From a virus, in IMG/VR virus record IMGVR_UViG_3300000117_000135, positions 1 through 31,204 of that record: a stretch of DNA of 31,204 nt; one strand, 5' to 3'. The notes under the pieces were generated by a model that searched no databases, was not told where the DNA came from, and worked only from the letters and a program-made list of their open reading frames with translations. This document shows, piece by piece, positions 3,501 through 10,978 of the stretch. Position 1 is the stretch's first letter; each line of letters opens with the position of its first letter. Made by a program: the position numbers and the translations under genes.

Positions 3501-4620
3501 TCGTTACTTCTGTTGAACTTGTTCCCCATGCCGTGCCATTCCAATAATAAGAACCCGATTGTATTCTAATCTGTGCAGAAGGATAATTATCTGGAATACT
3601 ACCAGTATCTGCTACCCATAAATTAAATTCTAGGCTTATATTCCCAGTACCATCACCTTGCCAGAACTGTGAATAGCTTTCGTTAGTTGTGGTAAGCCAT
3701 AGTTCCCTTGGTATCTTTATACCTTGAACAACGCTTTGATGGTCAAACTTAGCCTTAGCCCTTTTAATTCCTGCGAAATAGTTATTGCTAGAACTACCTA
3801 ATAAATAAAGGTCATCACTATCAACTGATTCTCTTAAATTGACGTTTGTTAATGGTGAACCTTGTTGTACACCACTTGAATTGTACGTACTGGTGGGTAC
3901 ACTTGAAGTATCATCTAATGCTGACAACTGGATAAGTTGCCATTCATTGTTGGCTTGCCTAAGAATAAGACCATACGTCTTAAGCATATAGATAAGTGCC
4001 TGCTCGTTTGAAATAGGTCTATCTACTTCGCCCGATGTTTTAGCGTATGTTCTTAGTCTTTCTTTTTCGTGGTAAACTTGATTAAGAACGTCATCACTTG
4101 CACTTATTTCGCTTTCAGTCCACGTAGTATAAGTCTTGATATTTAAACCATAGCCTAAAGTATCTAACAAGTCAGCTATGATTACTATGGCTTTTTCTGC
4201 TCCAGTTGCTAAGGTGTAATCACCACTAAAGAATATATCTTTGGCTTGTAGATTAGCCGATTGATTACCATAGTTTTCTTCGCTTATTGAAATCAAATCT
4301 GGAACTAATAATCCAGTCCAAACAACTGAACCATTTTTCTTAAGCTTAACTTGGTAATCGCCTAATTCAGAACTAGCAATACTTTCTAAAATAGTTCGTT
4401 GTGCAGAATCTTCAACCCGTATTTGACCACTACAAGTTGATTTTTGAATGTTATTTATCTGCCTAAAGGAAAGTTCTTCGTATTGTCGCTTTATTGAAAC
4501 GCCAGTCCATTCAGTAGTACTACCAGAATAACCATCTTCTAAAATTTCAAAACGGTAGGTAGTTTCGGTACTTCCTACTATTTTTTTATCAACAAAATAG
4601 TATTTCAGTCCGTATGCCAT
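532..4620 (-). CDS. Giant tail-tip / baseplate hub and host-interaction protein
   Basis: 1362 residues. Its position directly after the tape measure, sharing one base with it (TAATG), is where siphoviruses encode distal tail or tail-associated proteins. The N-terminal 550 or so residues look like a globular tip domain. A Ser/Gly-rich linker follows (near 600, SSGGGSGSSG), then a motif seen twice, LGTGDDVTFN and LGTGDNVTFN, typical of phage fibre modules. The following stretch (KNDTGGTLTKGTPVYISG) resembles domains found in large marine-phage structural proteins. The C-terminal third is beta-rich and ends in a domain containing TFTVKSYESQTRIALDGV. It probably merges functions that other phages split between Dit, Tal and fibre genes. 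No enzymatic residues were identified. Confidence 0.75.
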   Translation of the reverse strand: MAYGLKYYFVDKKIVGSTETTYRFEILEDGYSGSTTEWTGVSIKRQYEELSFRQINNIQKSTCSGQIRVEDSAQRTILESIASSELGDYQVKLKKNGSVVWTGLLVPDLISISEENYGNQSANLQAKDIFFSGDYTLATGAEKAIVIIADLLDTLGYGLNIKTYTTWTESEISASDDVLNQVYHEKERLRTYAKTSGEVDRPISNEQALIYMLKTYGLILRQANNEWQLIQLSALDDTSSVPTSTYNSSGVQQGSPLTNVNLRESVDSDDLYLLGSSSNNYFAGIKRAKAKFDHQSVVQGIKIPRELWLTTTNESYSQFWQGDGTGNISLEFNLWVADTGSIPDNYPSAQIRIQSGSYYWNGTAWGTSSTEVTIEVSGPTTTDSDGNHVYKSGLVSLVTDPIPDAADGTLTITFIPSPTIVTSVVYSYFRDIIFNLSYQDDIENSLSIDFELEQTGIFNAEYDYGSFYFGDGPATASLSALKDSNNDLTDAWKQIGEGTSVSHQEILLREILDFQRGQRRNIRATLYGEFEPDKVIQYDSKSFFFLGGSWDSKSYQWTSNLIEADPTTGTDTLTTYYNTTGEGVTTSASTGSSGGGSGSSGLYLEKANNLSDLQSVSTARDNLGLGTGDDVTFNTVTADFIGDLTGAIHVQGKNDTGGTLTKGTPVYISGQVAEGQQFTIDVADSDGNGTMPSIGILSADVNDNAQGDIVTHGKLIGIDTSSFTVGDELFIGPSGTLVNTPPTGESNLLQKIAKVIRVNETDGQIYIMGAGRTNAVPNLDEGDIFIGDSNNQAITKALSDTAVINELESDVIENHLEIESLQDNKVEKGQLFPDGDEQALGTGDNVTFNALTANGATDLNSTLNVQGVLTTQDNILDDGFSEGWTGTNWRIKADGSAELQELRVRGSLRVYEFIAKQISTIGGSEILSIAQGRVESAGSGEIVIDNVDGSTATSFSSGDLWIVQTVDINTGTVTSVRGLVDSVSNNVLTVTVESGSLADLEQGDLIVGYGNTSNADRQAIMYRNVDRSVDNLIMRLQTGVNEFSKLQAEANTRVAFGDLNGYSGLSSETFGFFAGDNSNEHILVTDGGLFLKDGTSTLAQLTSNTFKVGDTTNFLSFNGSAFEIETQAFRLDTTASGGGIDIDSTTQTIKLEDSNKVRTQVDITNGSPSVSVDVNQSISAQTITDLSAYETTAGTYYNVDLGDAVEVFVTASLTTLTNADGATFNIALYGGNSSTSATNLLAQKRSQIISSGSTSLYLTAYSYTYDYFKVRIEADIDNPGEAPPTPAVTFTTSTFTVKSYESQTRIALDGVYVNNDSTQYARLTRDSNKLSGLTILENLPTGDPEIVGALYNDNGTIKISSG

Positions 4621-6500
4621 TATCTACCTAATTTATAGTTCGCTTCTTCTAGTGTAAGTACTAAGTCAGTTCCGTTGATTCTAAATTCGCCACCTAAGTT
4701 AATGTTGCTAGTTCCTGCCGTTTGTACACCCGTACCCATCAACTGGTTGTTAGGCACAATAGAACCCGATACATTAGGCATAAATAATTCTGGACCACGT
4801 TCACCAACAACATAAGGTTGATTGCTGAATACTGGACCACCACGGGCTTTGAATAAGCCACCAATTAATTTACCAAATATTCCACCACCTTCACCAAAGA
4901 ATCCATCACCACCTAAGCCACCAGTTAAAAATATGCTTATAGCTTTTTGTATTACTGCACTTGCTAAAAGCTTACCAATATTTCTTAAAGTATCGGCAAA
5001 TTTTTCGCCTTGTAAAATCACATTTGACATTCCTTGACCAAAAGAACTTGTAAATGTATCTGTTATTCCACTAAGTAAAGTAACGGCTTGTGATGCACTT
5101 ATAAATGGTGCTTTAATTTCTTCTGCCGTTGGTATAGATGCAACAAATTCATTTAGTTCAGTACCTAAAGTATCTAAATCTAAATCTATTAATTCGCCTT
5201 CGGTTTCAGTTGCAACAACAAGTGGCTTTAATTGTGGAATGGCTTTCGCACTTTCCTTATAGGCATCAGATACATCATTAGCACTTTGTCTTGCAGTCTG
5301 GGAAACACCCATTAAAGCATCTTTAGCTTTATTAGCCGCACTTGTTAAAATATCACCTAAAGGAACTATATCATTTTCAAAGGTCTTAGTTTCTTCTTTA
5401 AACTGCTCTAAACCTTCTGACATCCCTTCAAATGGGTTGCCGATTCCTTCCCTTCCTGCAAATTCTAATACTTGATTTATCCCTTTTATAATTAAAGAAA
5501 AAGGATTATTCGTCAAGAAGAATTGCATCATGTTTATAAGCGTATTCTTCCACCAAGAAATGTCAGTAAATCTTTCTTTTAAGGCTTCGTAATTAACGAC
5601 TACATAAGTGAATGATGCAGTAAGCGCCGCAATAGCACCAATAGCTAAAGCAATAGGACTTGTCAAAGCACCTATAATAACACCCAATGAACTTATAGCA
5701 ACACCAAGTGCAACTATTGCAGGACCTGCTATCGTGCCAATCAATACTATCTGTGATACAAATAATTTAGTTTGTTCTGATGCACCTTGGAATCTAGTAA
5801 CAAGGCTTTTTAGGCTTGCAATAAATGGCTTTATGTGTTCCATTATTAAGCCACCTATTTCTTCAGTCAAATCACCGAAGCTATTCTGCAACTGCTTTAA
5901 AGGACCTAAACCAACTTCAGCTTCTGAAGTAGCCGCACTAAACATTTGCGTTAATAATTCTTGGGCTTTTGCCGCACGTTCTGTGTCATCTTCTATTTGC
6001 CGTAAAGTTGGCAAATATCTGTTTAACATTGTAGAATCGCCTTGTTCTAGTGCCGCAGTATATCTAATAGCAGATTGCTCATTTATACCCATCGCCTTAG
6101 CTAGGGCTATACTATTCTGCGTTGCTCTTTTGGCTTGCTCATTAGATAAGCCCATAGACTTAGCGAGTTGCAACATCTTCAATGTAGATTCATCACCTAC
6201 AGTTGTTACGCCTTGTAGTCCAATAGCAAAATTCTTAAAATCTTGAAGTGCTTGATTAGAAAATTCACCTGCACTACGAAGTGCCGCTTCTAATCTTTTT
6301 TCTGCTTGTATTTGCGTATCAAACGCTTTTACACTTACACCTGCGGCTAATGTAAGTGGTGCAGATATTCTTGTAGAAATAGTTTTACCAAAGCTAGTAA
6401 CATCTTTACCAAAACTTTTTAACTGACCACTAGCCTTGTTCAAGTCCCCAGTAAAACTTGAAAGGTCAGCAAATAATTTTACACCGAATTGACCTAGCAT
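4620..6500 (-). CDS. Tail tape measure protein
   Basis: 626 residues, starting MLGQFGVKLFADLSSFTGDLNKA. The N-terminus is helical (FGKDVTSFGKTISTRISAP). Long hydrophobic, alanine-rich segments follow near residues 245-305 and a glycine-rich hydrophobic stretch lies near 530-560, the usual pattern of tape measure proteins that span the tail lumen and assist DNA entry. It follows the tail-chaperone frameshift pair and precedes the tail-tip gene, the canonical order. Its ATG shares a base with the stop of the chaperone extension (TAATG at 6498-6502), implying translational coupling. At about 1.5 angstrom per residue it would set a tail of roughly 90-95 nm. Confidence 0.9.
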   Translation of the reverse strand: MLGQFGVKLFADLSSFTGDLNKASGQLKSFGKDVTSFGKTISTRISAPLTLAAGVSVKAFDTQIQAEKRLEAALRSAGEFSNQALQDFKNFAIGLQGVTTVGDESTLKMLQLAKSMGLSNEQAKRATQNSIALAKAMGINEQSAIRYTAALEQGDSTMLNRYLPTLRQIEDDTERAAKAQELLTQMFSAATSEAEVGLGPLKQLQNSFGDLTEEIGGLIMEHIKPFIASLKSLVTRFQGASEQTKLFVSQIVLIGTIAGPAIVALGVAISSLGVIIGALTSPIALAIGAIAALTASFTYVVVNYEALKERFTDISWWKNTLINMMQFFLTNNPFSLIIKGINQVLEFAGREGIGNPFEGMSEGLEQFKEETKTFENDIVPLGDILTSAANKAKDALMGVSQTARQSANDVSDAYKESAKAIPQLKPLVVATETEGELIDLDLDTLGTELNEFVASIPTAEEIKAPFISASQAVTLLSGITDTFTSSFGQGMSNVILQGEKFADTLRNIGKLLASAVIQKAISIFLTGGLGGDGFFGEGGGIFGKLIGGLFKARGGPVFSNQPYVVGERGPELFMPNVSGSIVPNNQLMGTGVQTAGTSNINLGGEFRINGTDLVLTLEEANYKLGR

Positions 6501-8808: not shown

Positions 8809-9408
8809 TCAGATTAGTTTAGCGTACTTTTTGAAATGCGATTTAGAACCATTAGGTAGTTCACTTACACCACCTTCTACTAAATCTTGTCTATCTTCAT
8901 AGCTAGATAGAACTGCTTTTTTTATACCAAGTGTAATGCCATTAGGTATAGAAGTATAGCCTGCTACATATACTACTTTTAATCGCATTCTTTCAAATGG
9001 ATTTTCGTAAGCGTATAGGCTATTAAAAACAAGGGTATCACCTTGTAAGTAAAAATCATCCCCTGCCGTCAATGTAGTTTCAGTGCCTTCGTGATTTATG
9101 GTTTTGACAGAACTCACCGACTGAGCAGGGAATAAAGGCAAATCAACTCTTTTACCATAGCTTTCCCATTCAGCAGTTACAGTTTTTTCAATAAGCTGAA
9201 AAGAATACGATTCTTCAACTACATCTATAACTTCAGCTACTAAGCTTGCTATCAAACTATCTTCAACACTTGATTCTACTTTCATCCAAGATTTTGCATC
9301 TGCCGTGCTAAGTACATCGGTTGAAGCATTTGTACCAGTTGCTACTGTTGAAACTGTTACAACGCCATTTTGCCCGTAATCTGGTGAAACGATACTACTT
9401 CTTAGCAT
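8809..9408 (-). CDS. Head-tail connector protein (gp6/gp15-like adaptor)
   Basis: 199 residues. The ADAKSWMKVESSVEDSLIAS helix, the central LPLFPAQSVSSV segment and the C-terminal part with KKAVLSSYEDRQDL match the phage gp6-like / phiE125 gp8-type adaptor family that binds the portal. It overlaps the preceding small gene by 14 bases and precedes the stopper gene. Confidence 0.8.
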   Translation of the reverse strand: MLRSSIVSPDYGQNGVVTVSTVATGTNASTDVLSTADAKSWMKVESSVEDSLIASLVAEVIDVVEESYSFQLIEKTVTAEWESYGKRVDLPLFPAQSVSSVKTINHEGTETTLTAGDDFYLQGDTLVFNSLYAYENPFERMRLKVVYVAGYTSIPNGITLGIKKAVLSSYEDRQDLVEGGVSELPNGSKSHFKKYAKLI

Positions 9409-9676
9409 TTAACTCATCCTTTAGTTTAATAGCCTTTGATTCTGGAAGTCTATCTATTATTTGGTTGCCTTTCTTGACATAGTACATGGTCTTAGTATTG
9501 TTGTCTTTTTCTATATGTACTTTGTCAGTTGCATTGTATGCTTTTTTATCTTCTTTAGTTTCATACAATAAACCACGTTTAAGCATATCAATCATTGTGG
9601 CATTATCTGCTTTAAAAGGTTGGTCTATTTTGTACGGTTTTTTACCGTACCTAAAGTTTTTTCTACATCTATACAT
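9395..9676 (-). CDS. Small basic structural-region protein, unknown
   Basis: 93 residues from the ATG at 9676, MYRCRKNFRYGKKPYKIDQ, lysine-rich, ending KLKDELNAKK. A longer frame reaches a TTG at 9724, but its first 16 codons would translate the tRNA-like structure, so ATG 9676 is preferred. It lies between the major capsid gene and the connector, where many HK97-like phages carry a short protein of unclear role. No enzymatic motif or membrane segment is visible. Confidence 0.75.
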   Translation of the reverse strand: MYRCRKNFRYGKKPYKIDQPFKADNATMIDMLKRGLLYETKEDKKAYNATDKVHIEKDNNTKTMYYVKKGNQIIDRLPESKAIKLKDELNAKK

Positions 9677-9695
9677 AACAATAAAATTAATTAAG

Positions 9696-9739
9696 AAGGA
9701 TGGGCAGGAATCGAACCTGCCCAAGTTCCAAACATCCTT
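9696..9739 (-). ncRNA. tRNA-like acceptor/T-arm minihelix
   Basis: On the minus strand AAGGATG (9739-9733) pairs with CATCCTT (9702-9696) as a seven-pair acceptor-like stem. Inside lies GGCAGG-TTCGATT-CCTGCC (9721-9703), whose loop fits the TPsiC consensus exactly, and GGTTCGATTCC is a perfect box B / T-arm signature. Only 11 bases (9732-9722) stand where the D and anticodon arms should be, so this is not a functional tRNA. No 3' CCA is encoded. It lies between the major capsid stop and the next ATG. Confidence 0.7.
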
Positions 9740-9741
9740 AT

Positions 9742-9760
9742 GGTAATATTAAGAATTACC
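9742..9760 (-). other. Hairpin enclosing the capsid gene stop codon
   Basis: GGTAAT-TCTTAAT-ATTACC on the minus strand is a perfect six-pair stem with a seven-base loop holding the TAA stop of the major capsid gene. It is followed two bases later by the tRNA-like minihelix, so the two structures may stack and protect or define the 3' end of capsid mRNA. There is no U-run immediately after, so it is not a classic terminator. Confidence 0.5.
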
Positions 9761-10978
9761 TGCGTTCTGTATTGCAGTAGTGAAGTTACCAAACGCACCT
9801 GCATTAGGCAAGTAAGTTGGTAGTGCTAAACGACCACTAATTTGTACAGTTACTAAATCTTTAACCACGTTGTCTTGGTCTTGCTCGTAGAAACGAACTT
9901 GCATAGACTCACGGTCAAATAAAGTACATAGTTGAGCAAAGTCAGCTACTAGGAAGTCATTTGCATTTCCATCAGTTGAATTTATTGCATTAGTAGCAAT
10001 AATAGGTACTCCACGTACAACTGGTACACGAGTTCCATAAACAACATCATTTGGGAATACATAGTTACCGTTAGCATCCTTTCTACGAATCATGTCATAG
10101 AATCGACCTATTGACATCATGATTGCAGATGGGGTGAAGTTACGGTTTTCAACTTGTCTAAGTGCTTCAAGTATTACATCATGCTCGGTTGCATCAGCAT
10201 CGCCAGTATATTGGTCTAAAGTATAGTCAGTAGAAGTTACTGTCAAGCCATAAGTTGAATCATATAGCAAGTAAGAATCTTCTTCTTTCATATACTTCTC
10301 CATTCCACGTAGTGAAATGTGGCTAGCTAGTCCTGCAGTATCATTCAATGCTTCTTTAGAAACACGGAAGTGTGCCGCAATTTTTTCAACAACGGCATCA
10401 GTTGCAGTTAGGTCAAAATCGTTTTGTCCAGAAGCATCGCCTTCAGCAGTTACCGCAGTATTGTCTGTGAAGTTGCTTTCTTTGATGTATCGGATTTTGT
10501 CGCTATTAGTTGTACCGTTTGGTAGGAATTGACGAACATGAGTTTTACGCTCGGCATCGTACTTCATACCTGCAACATAGTCAGCAGGAACAACATCACC
10601 AGTATAAGCATCAGCTTCAGTTATAACTGCTTTAGTGTTCATAGTAAAGCCAGAAATGTTACCTGCTTTGAAGGCTTCCATTTGCTCTTGAACGCTTTTG
10701 CTTTCTAGTGATTCTTGAAGAATGTTTTTAACACTAGCAGGCTTGCTACCAGAACCTAATCTGTTAGCAGACTTTTCGATAGCTTCTAATCTATCTTTTT
10801 GGCTAGAAATTAATTCTTCGATGTTTTTGATTTCGCTTTTAGTAGCAGAATCAGCTTCGCCTGCAAGGCTTACTTGCTCTTGAAGTTTGTCGTAACGGGA
10901 TTCTAAATCGCCTTTTAGAACATCCATGTGTCCTTTTACCGATTCAAGCCCTTCTGATAAGGTTTTTTCTAAGTCCAT
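9749..10978 (-). CDS. Major capsid protein, HK97 fold
   Basis: 409 residues. Residues 1-75 are a charged heptad-rich helix (scaffolding delta domain, MDLEKTLSEGLESVKGHMD...). A linker follows, then the HK97-type shell domain with TGDVVPADYVAGM, FRVSKEALNDTAGLASHI and YLPNAGAFGNF. The adjacent protease gene fits removal of the delta domain during maturation; the cleavage site cannot be read reliably, but a site around residues 100-115 would fit. The start overlaps the protease gene end by 10 bases. The HK97 crosslinking Lys/Asn pair was not assigned. Confidence 0.93.
   Translation of the reverse strand: MDLEKTLSEGLESVKGHMDVLKGDLESRYDKLQEQVSLAGEADSATKSEIKNIEELISSQKDRLEAIEKSANRLGSGSKPASVKNILQESLESKSVQEQMEAFKAGNISGFTMNTKAVITEADAYTGDVVPADYVAGMKYDAERKTHVRQFLPNGTTNSDKIRYIKESNFTDNTAVTAEGDASGQNDFDLTATDAVVEKIAAHFRVSKEALNDTAGLASHISLRGMEKYMKEEDSYLLYDSTYGLTVTSTDYTLDQYTGDADATEHDVILEALRQVENRNFTPSAIMMSIGRFYDMIRRKDANGNYVFPNDVVYGTRVPVVRGVPIIATNAINSTDGNANDFLVADFAQLCTLFDRESMQVRFYEQDQDNVVKDLVTVQISGRLALPTYLPNAGAFGNFTTAIQNAGNS

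Follow-up and report, generated by a model that had tools for sequence, protein, structure and literature searches.

What does a tRNA-like structure do between two protein genes of a phage? The question is raised by a short sequence directly behind the major capsid gene in the window, meaning the whole analyzed stretch of 31,204 nt (IMG/VR virus record IMGVR_UViG_3300000117_000135). An initial annotation had taken it for a possible RNase P–type processing site acting together with a hairpin that spans the stop codon of that gene.

Architecture of the element behind the capsid gene

The element lies on the minus strand, which is the strand of the phage genes. It starts 9 nt past the capsid stop codon, and 19 nt separate its paired part from the next ATG. 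The location right behind the capsid gene, as initially annotated, is borne out by a Pfam match to the upstream product. The features are, in the direction of transcription:

9749-10978, minus strand: major capsid protein (MCP) gene, lying upstream; its product matches Pfam Phage_capsid PF05065 (E 8.7e-24)
9742-9760, minus strand: hairpin GGTAATTCTTAATATTACC holding the capsid stop codon 9749-9751, ending 2 nt before the element
9695-9739, minus strand: whole mini-tRNA-like element, 45 nt (covariance model match and covariation)
9733-9739, minus strand: acceptor-like stem, 5' strand AAGGATG, pairing with 9696-9702
9722-9732, minus strand: linker TTTGGAACTTG, 11 nt, with the mini D-like hairpin TT-TGG-AA; TTTGGAA is invariant in the MCP family
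9716-9721, minus strand: T-like stem, 5' strand GGCAGG, pairing with CCTGCC at 9703-9708
9709-9715, minus strand: T-loop TTCGATT (UUCGAUU in RNA), near-invariant in the MCP family
9703-9708, minus strand: T-like stem, 3' strand CCTGCC, on the same basis as 9716-9721
9696-9702, minus strand: acceptor-like stem, 3' strand CATCCTT; its last T is position 73, paired with A-1
9395-9676, minus strand: downstream gene with no assigned function (open reading frame; start also from comparison of relatives)

Both the seven-pair acceptor-like stem (9733-9739 with 9696-9702) and the perfect T-arm with its TTCGATT loop stand as first described, now placed on the minus strand. The perfect T-stem measures 6-7 bp, compared with 5 bp in tRNA. 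The anticodon arm and the canonical D arm are absent, and 11 nt separate the acceptor from the T arm. These 11 nt had been seen as a mere replacement of the two missing arms; the length is right, but they are not filler, since UUUGGAA is invariant in relatives and makes a mini D-hairpin, one that covaries in other phages. The extent had been drawn too long: the element does not reach 9760 but comprises 9695-9739, and 9740-9760 form the separate stop-codon hairpin. Directly past the acceptor-like stem, a conserved C at 9695 occupies the register of tRNA position 74.

The window element folds more stably than shuffled sequence (z = -3.05). A covariance model, built from sequences that include the window's own element, gives a single strong match in the window (68.1 bits, E 5.8e-21). 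In the same window, ARAGORN reports 0 tRNA genes, and the best Rfam match is tRNA-Sec (RF01852) with 22.6 bits, under the cut-off of 47. An exact 27-mer of the element is present in 15 viral contigs. The product of the downstream gene (9395-9676) has no Pfam match.

Conservation and covariation among capsid-gene relatives

A capsid protein scan of viral contigs yielded 79 loci. The element is present at the same place in all 65 sequences that extend past the capsid gene (window included; 63-99% protein identity), and each of the seven longer relative contigs carries exactly one copy. Ten distant capsid relatives (~35% identity) lack it and have terminator-like hairpins with long T runs instead, and the element is also absent from several phages whose capsid or terminase genes are related.

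Compensatory changes between 9696-9702 and 9733-9739, which the initial annotation had named as the check on its proposal, are present. Among 12 distinct versions of the element, gathered by capsid-protein homology with pairing ignored, 97.8% of cells pair and 26 cells show double changes versus 8.3 in shuffles, whereas slid structures on the same versions reach only 44-67% pairing. In MCP-family relatives, pairs 6 and 7 of the acceptor-like stem are altered on both sides; in the 6-bp T-like stem, both-side changes occur in three of six pairs in the MCP family and in five of six across all phages. The T-loop shows a single T/C difference in the MCP family, which was gathered by protein homology, and is otherwise invariant; the wider searches demanded TTCRANY. 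An alignment of diverse phages, whose rows were chosen partly by pairing, has double changes in 14 of 15 pairs and a score of 0.941 versus 0.185 when shuffled. Among sequence-only matches outside the MCP family, 35 of 81 form 6-7 of the seven acceptor pairs, compared with 8% for permuted strands.

The stop-codon hairpin is likewise conserved. It folds in all 27 distinct MCP-family sequences (mean -5.9 versus -1.6 kcal/mol shuffled), is built from differing base pairs among the members, and ends 0-2 nt before the acceptor strand in every one of the 27. In the family of the window, a hairpin lies upstream of the element, and none lies directly downstream. In five loci (L028, L029, L043, L044, and L045), the stop-codon hairpin is tandemly duplicated behind the capsid gene and can make one longer stem.

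A widespread class of elements

The initial annotation saw one element and did not foresee a class. The pattern of linker and T-arm occurs in at least 119 stretches of viral contigs, many of which belong to unrelated phages and show this architecture immediately behind a stop codon. Scanning by structure alone gave 98 elements versus 0 in shuffles, with a 13-bp stack in 90; a relaxed-rule scan of additional loci gave 166 distinct ones, spread over 96 loci, again versus 0. Both counts depend on the choice of loci and give no estimate of prevalence. Most copies have an acceptor plus T stack of 12-13 bp capped by a TTCRANY loop, which is the shape of an RNase P minihelix, and some have 11-bp stacks.

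Genomes carry between 1 and 14 copies. The covariance model finds one match in the window. A 69-kb contig has 14 matches, a 53-kb contig has 8, and Mycobacterium phage Fowlmouth has 11; several further phages have 4-6 each, and a few weak matches comprise the T-arm only. The model finds no element in T4, lambda, T7, Cellulophaga phi18:1, Patience, crAss001, or BV283P2, and BLAST of the element against isolated phages returns only weak, chance-level matches. The copies of other phages are missed by Rfam (gathering scores) and ARAGORN as well, with the exception of one doubtful tRNA-Phe call (L139, 11638-11709, minus strand), which overlaps a mini element and is probably false.

The closest counterparts of the window terminase, at 34-43% identity, are found in phages from faecal samples and phages of Phocaeicola, which is a weak hint that the host of this phage may belong to the Bacteroidota. 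Together with the mycobacteriophages, this suggests that the element occurs in phages across bacterial phyla.

The mini D-hairpin and the 3' end

Across phages, the linker forms a hairpin of 2-3 bp with a UGG or CGG loop. The variants TT-TGG-AA, AA-TGG-TT, CT-TGG-AG, CA-TGG-TG, TA-TGG-TA, and GA-CGG-TC differ on both sides of the stem. The first structural scan made no demand for pairing of the D-hairpin; in the aligned set, every D-hairpin cell pairs, and both pairs are altered on both sides. In tRNA, the elbow is formed by G18 and G19 of the D-loop docking on the T-loop; RNase P stacks on the G19-C56 surface, and RNase Z, too, recognizes the elbow (PMC4810234). By analogy, the GG of the mini D-hairpin may contact the T-loop as G18/G19 do, giving a tRNA-like elbow. 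Because the weak D-hairpin does not emerge from an energy model on its own, this elbow is something that we only infer.

At the 3' end, the conserved C stands at nucleotide 14 after the T-loop, i.e., at the position of tRNA C74, in 122 of the 166 elements and at nucleotide 13 in another 36 (158 of 166 together). The acceptor stack often carries an additional -1:73 pair, and the C is kept both in copies with a paired A(-1):U73 and in copies with an unpaired A73. RNase P base-pairs with the 3' RCCA (PMC11143913), and by this analogy the conserved C is suggestive, although no proof, of an RNase P contact. A full encoded CCA is rare among the 166 elements, which hence do not share the 3' RCCA of the minihelix substrate. 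In one locus (L095, e.g., at 2941, 3302, 5330, and 5702), several copies have an encoded CCCA at their end, following a closing G-C pair, which resembles tRNA-His (G-1:C73).

Gene gaps of multi-copy phages

The laboratory host M. smegmatis served for the isolation of Fowlmouth, Cuke, Indlulamithi, and Predator. Many of the 70-125-nt gaps in the gene run of their right arm share one layout—stop codon, mini-tRNA, ACG, hairpin, short purine-rich stretch, and ATG—with the purine-rich stretch being AGGATGG-like in Fowlmouth, Cuke, and Indlulamithi. A full-length model match is found in 6 of 11 gaps in Fowlmouth, 8 of 11 in Cuke, 9 of 10 in Indlulamithi, and 2 of 8 in Predator, and more gaps hold low-scoring variants as judged by eye. 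Although annotated gaps make up only 15-23% of the sequence, 26 of the 32 full-length matches lie inside them, and all matches in the four annotated regions are on the gene strand. The elements thus sit between genes, on the coding strand of co-oriented genes, as t-elements and punctuating tRNAs do. The same gap grammar is seen in a metagenomic contig (L143). Of 62 folded tails from multi-copy phages, 58 begin a downstream stem 0-3 nt past the C.

The GenBank records of these mycobacteriophages annotate no such element. Some copies fall within annotated hypothetical open reading frames or extended starts, namely in Fowlmouth (L214, 1982-2021 and 2845-2889), Cuke (L215, 3437-3476 and 3720-3759), Indlulamithi (L216, 10963-11007), and Predator (L217, 9208-9247), suggesting spurious genes or wrong start codons at these places. 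Fowlmouth (3859-3978 and 4934-5133) and Cuke (5528-5724) also have larger forms in which a long additional arm separates the D-like hairpin from the T arm; they are possibly intermediates between tRNA and the mini element.

Upstream reading frames often terminate at the start of the element. Among non-MCP elements of the 13-bp class, 25 of 75 have a stop-like triplet split as T|AA at the element start. In seven loci (L094, L107, L123, L151, L154, L158, and L185), the first AA of the element belongs to the upstream TAA stop codon, an overlap that recalls mitochondrial messages with a stop codon split by tRNA removal.

Proposed punctuation by host tRNA enzymes

We consider it probable that the element mimics a tRNA in minimal form; host tRNA enzymes—RNase P and perhaps tRNase Z—would process it, and it would thereby punctuate the operon. 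Going out from the observed structure, covariation, D-hairpin, C74 register, coding-strand orientation, intergenic position, and abutting hairpins, this reading would entail a tertiary elbow, enzyme binding, cleavage, and an effect on mRNA levels. The acceptor stem, tiny D-hairpin, and T arm would rebuild the elbow by placing the GG on the T-loop, with no need of an anticodon arm, and host enzymes that read the elbow and the acceptor end would handle the element as a pre-tRNA. RNase P would be the likeliest cutter; its cut would fall on the 5' side, either between 9739 and 9738 in the transcript of the minus strand or immediately ahead of 9739, and tRNase Z might add a 3'-side cut near 9696/9695. 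Such a cut would split the capsid message from the downstream message, with the stop-codon hairpin becoming the protected 3' end of the former. In multi-copy phages, the hairpin stands on the opposite side and would shield the 5' end of the message of the next gene.

This reading is supported by covariation in homologs that were gathered regardless of pairing, by a D-hairpin that covaries unselected together with the fact that RNase P reads the G19-C56 face, and by the tRNA register (12 bp, N73, and C74) that is kept. It gains further support because the copies sit in gene gaps on the coding strand and because hairpins adjoin the predicted cut points, as in the 58 of 62 tails and the 27 of 27 stop regions. 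RNase P is near-universal in bacteria, which suits the occurrence in phages of unrelated hosts. Known substrates of the enzyme further include hairpin models made of acceptor and T stem, the M3 and C4 RNAs of phages, and certain mRNAs (PMC11143913).

The main doubt about an RNase P cut comes from the stop codons: because about one-third of the non-MCP 13-bp class overlaps a stop-like triplet, a 5' cut would split the UAA. In mitochondria, a UAA split by tRNA removal is completed by polyadenylation; in bacteria, we know of no obvious equivalent. The near absence of CCA also counts against this reading, as it lowers RNase P binding in model systems, and so do the extra -1:73 pair, the 11-bp stacks, and the related phages without the element. 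The processing site first proposed is partly supported: covariation, the C74 register, the GG, and the abutting hairpin speak for it; cleavage itself is a prediction, a 3' cut by tRNase Z would fit some arrangements equally well, and in some phages the stop codon would be split.

Alternative readings

A cut mainly or only on the 3' side, by tRNase Z or an enzyme of the RNase E/J type, is possible although unlikely. Herein, the element would cap the 3' end of the upstream message, and the downstream message would begin with a hairpin. The stop codons overlapping the 5' side would stay whole, the hairpins of multi-copy phages begin 0-3 nt after the C, and most copies lack CCA, as do the pre-tRNAs that are substrates of RNase Z (PMC4810234). 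The family of the window, however, has its hairpin upstream and none directly downstream. Moreover, RNase Z does not require an encoded C74, which nearly all of these elements have. We regard as more doubtful still a static, uncut structure that blocks exonucleases, insulates translation, or slows ribosomes, its tRNA likeness being that of a compact stable fold. A stable fold between stop and start codons with extra hairpins agrees with this, but a plain stem-loop would do, and the conserved GG, the T-loop, and the C74 register would go unexplained. It is quite improbable that the element is bound by another tRNA-reading factor (TruB, TrmA, the CCA enzyme, a synthetase, or a phage protein) for translation control or as a decoy. 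TruB and further enzymes do recognize the T-arm or the elbow (PMC4810234), yet one copy per gene gap with an adjoining hairpin would be unexplained, most copies lack the CCA for charging, and single-copy genomes would make poor decoys.

Two further readings have next to no probability. The T-arm and acceptor do look like the 3' half of a tRNA, as in a decayed phage tRNA or a tRNA 3' attachment-site remnant. A decayed tRNA, however, would not covary, and all relatives keep a fixed, anticodon-less length; an attachment-site remnant is disfavored because the element recurs in successive gaps on the coding strand, and a genome can have many differing copies, all of them in gene gaps. In addition, ARAGORN finds no tRNA in the window. 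The low rank that the initial annotation gave to both is thus upheld by covariation and by recurrence gap after gap. For an intrinsic transcription terminator, as negligible a candidate, a simple scan does flag the T-arm plus TCCTTCTT. The T-rich tail is the acceptor strand, though, which is G/C-rich in other phages (e.g., CAGGGGC) and varies by covariation and not toward T runs; no T run is conserved, and in the distant capsid relatives the place of the element is taken by ordinary hairpins of the terminator type, which do have long T runs.

Three more candidates were rejected. Stop codon readthrough would need a frame that stays open into the downstream gene; the window has one, but relatives do not conserve it: among the 65, gap lengths modulo 3 are distributed 29/21/15, and 42 have a further in-frame stop codon. 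An internal start at AAGGATG (Shine–Dalgarno-like sequence plus ATG) fails, as the ATG is not conserved (AAGGAAG, AAGGAAA, and AAGGAAC). An aminoacylated viral tRNA-like structure is unlikely, since most copies lack CCA.

Comparison with known systems

The closest known systems are the t-elements of plant mitochondria, tRNA-like structures between protein genes that mark the cleavage of long messages (PMC8003010). Both are intergenic and non-functional as tRNA; t-elements are organellar, whereas the phage elements occur in DNA phages, are uniformly 45 nt long, covary, and are repeated in many gaps. In mitochondrial tRNA punctuation, elements lie at or overlap stop codons, with predicted cuts by RNase P and RNase Z (PMC8003010). 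The position is alike, but real tRNAs are used there, whereas the phage elements cannot decode. The phage M3 RNA and the C4 antisense RNA of P1/P7 are likewise non-tRNA phage RNAs and are cut by RNase P (PMC11143913); going by their description in that review, they are individual RNAs and not a recurring intergenic element. RNase P model minihelices share the acceptor stem, T stem, and T-loop, which suffice for cleavage there (PMC11143913), but they are synthetic, whereas the phage version adds the tiny D-hairpin and lacks a full CCA. Viral mimicry of the elbow is shared with the 3' tRNA-like structures of plant RNA viruses such as TYMV (PMC4810234); these lie at genome 3' ends and are aminoacylated (PMC4810235), whereas the phage elements are internal and mostly without CCA. 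The likeness to bacterial tRNA and tRNA-Sec (RF01852) is below threshold, the phage element being without an anticodon arm and canonical D arm. No description of these elements was found in a search that covered mainly openly available papers, and the novelty of the class is provisional.

Taken broadly, we lean slightly toward the view that many DNA phages of unrelated hosts arrange their operons by evolved 45-nt mimics with a D-loop of three bases, which lie between genes and recruit host RNase P, and perhaps tRNase Z, to yield gene-sized messages protected by hairpins. If true, an unannotated class of phage RNA would explain relative gene levels within one transcript by means of borrowed tRNA maturation enzymes, and it would be the bacterial-virus counterpart of mitochondrial tRNA punctuation. 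Structural studies of RNase P would also gain a natural tRNA mimic that is very small and contains an elbow, and gene starts of phages would be corrected. Mycobacterium phages and phages of unrelated hosts would then have a common grammar of mRNA processing that annotation has missed.
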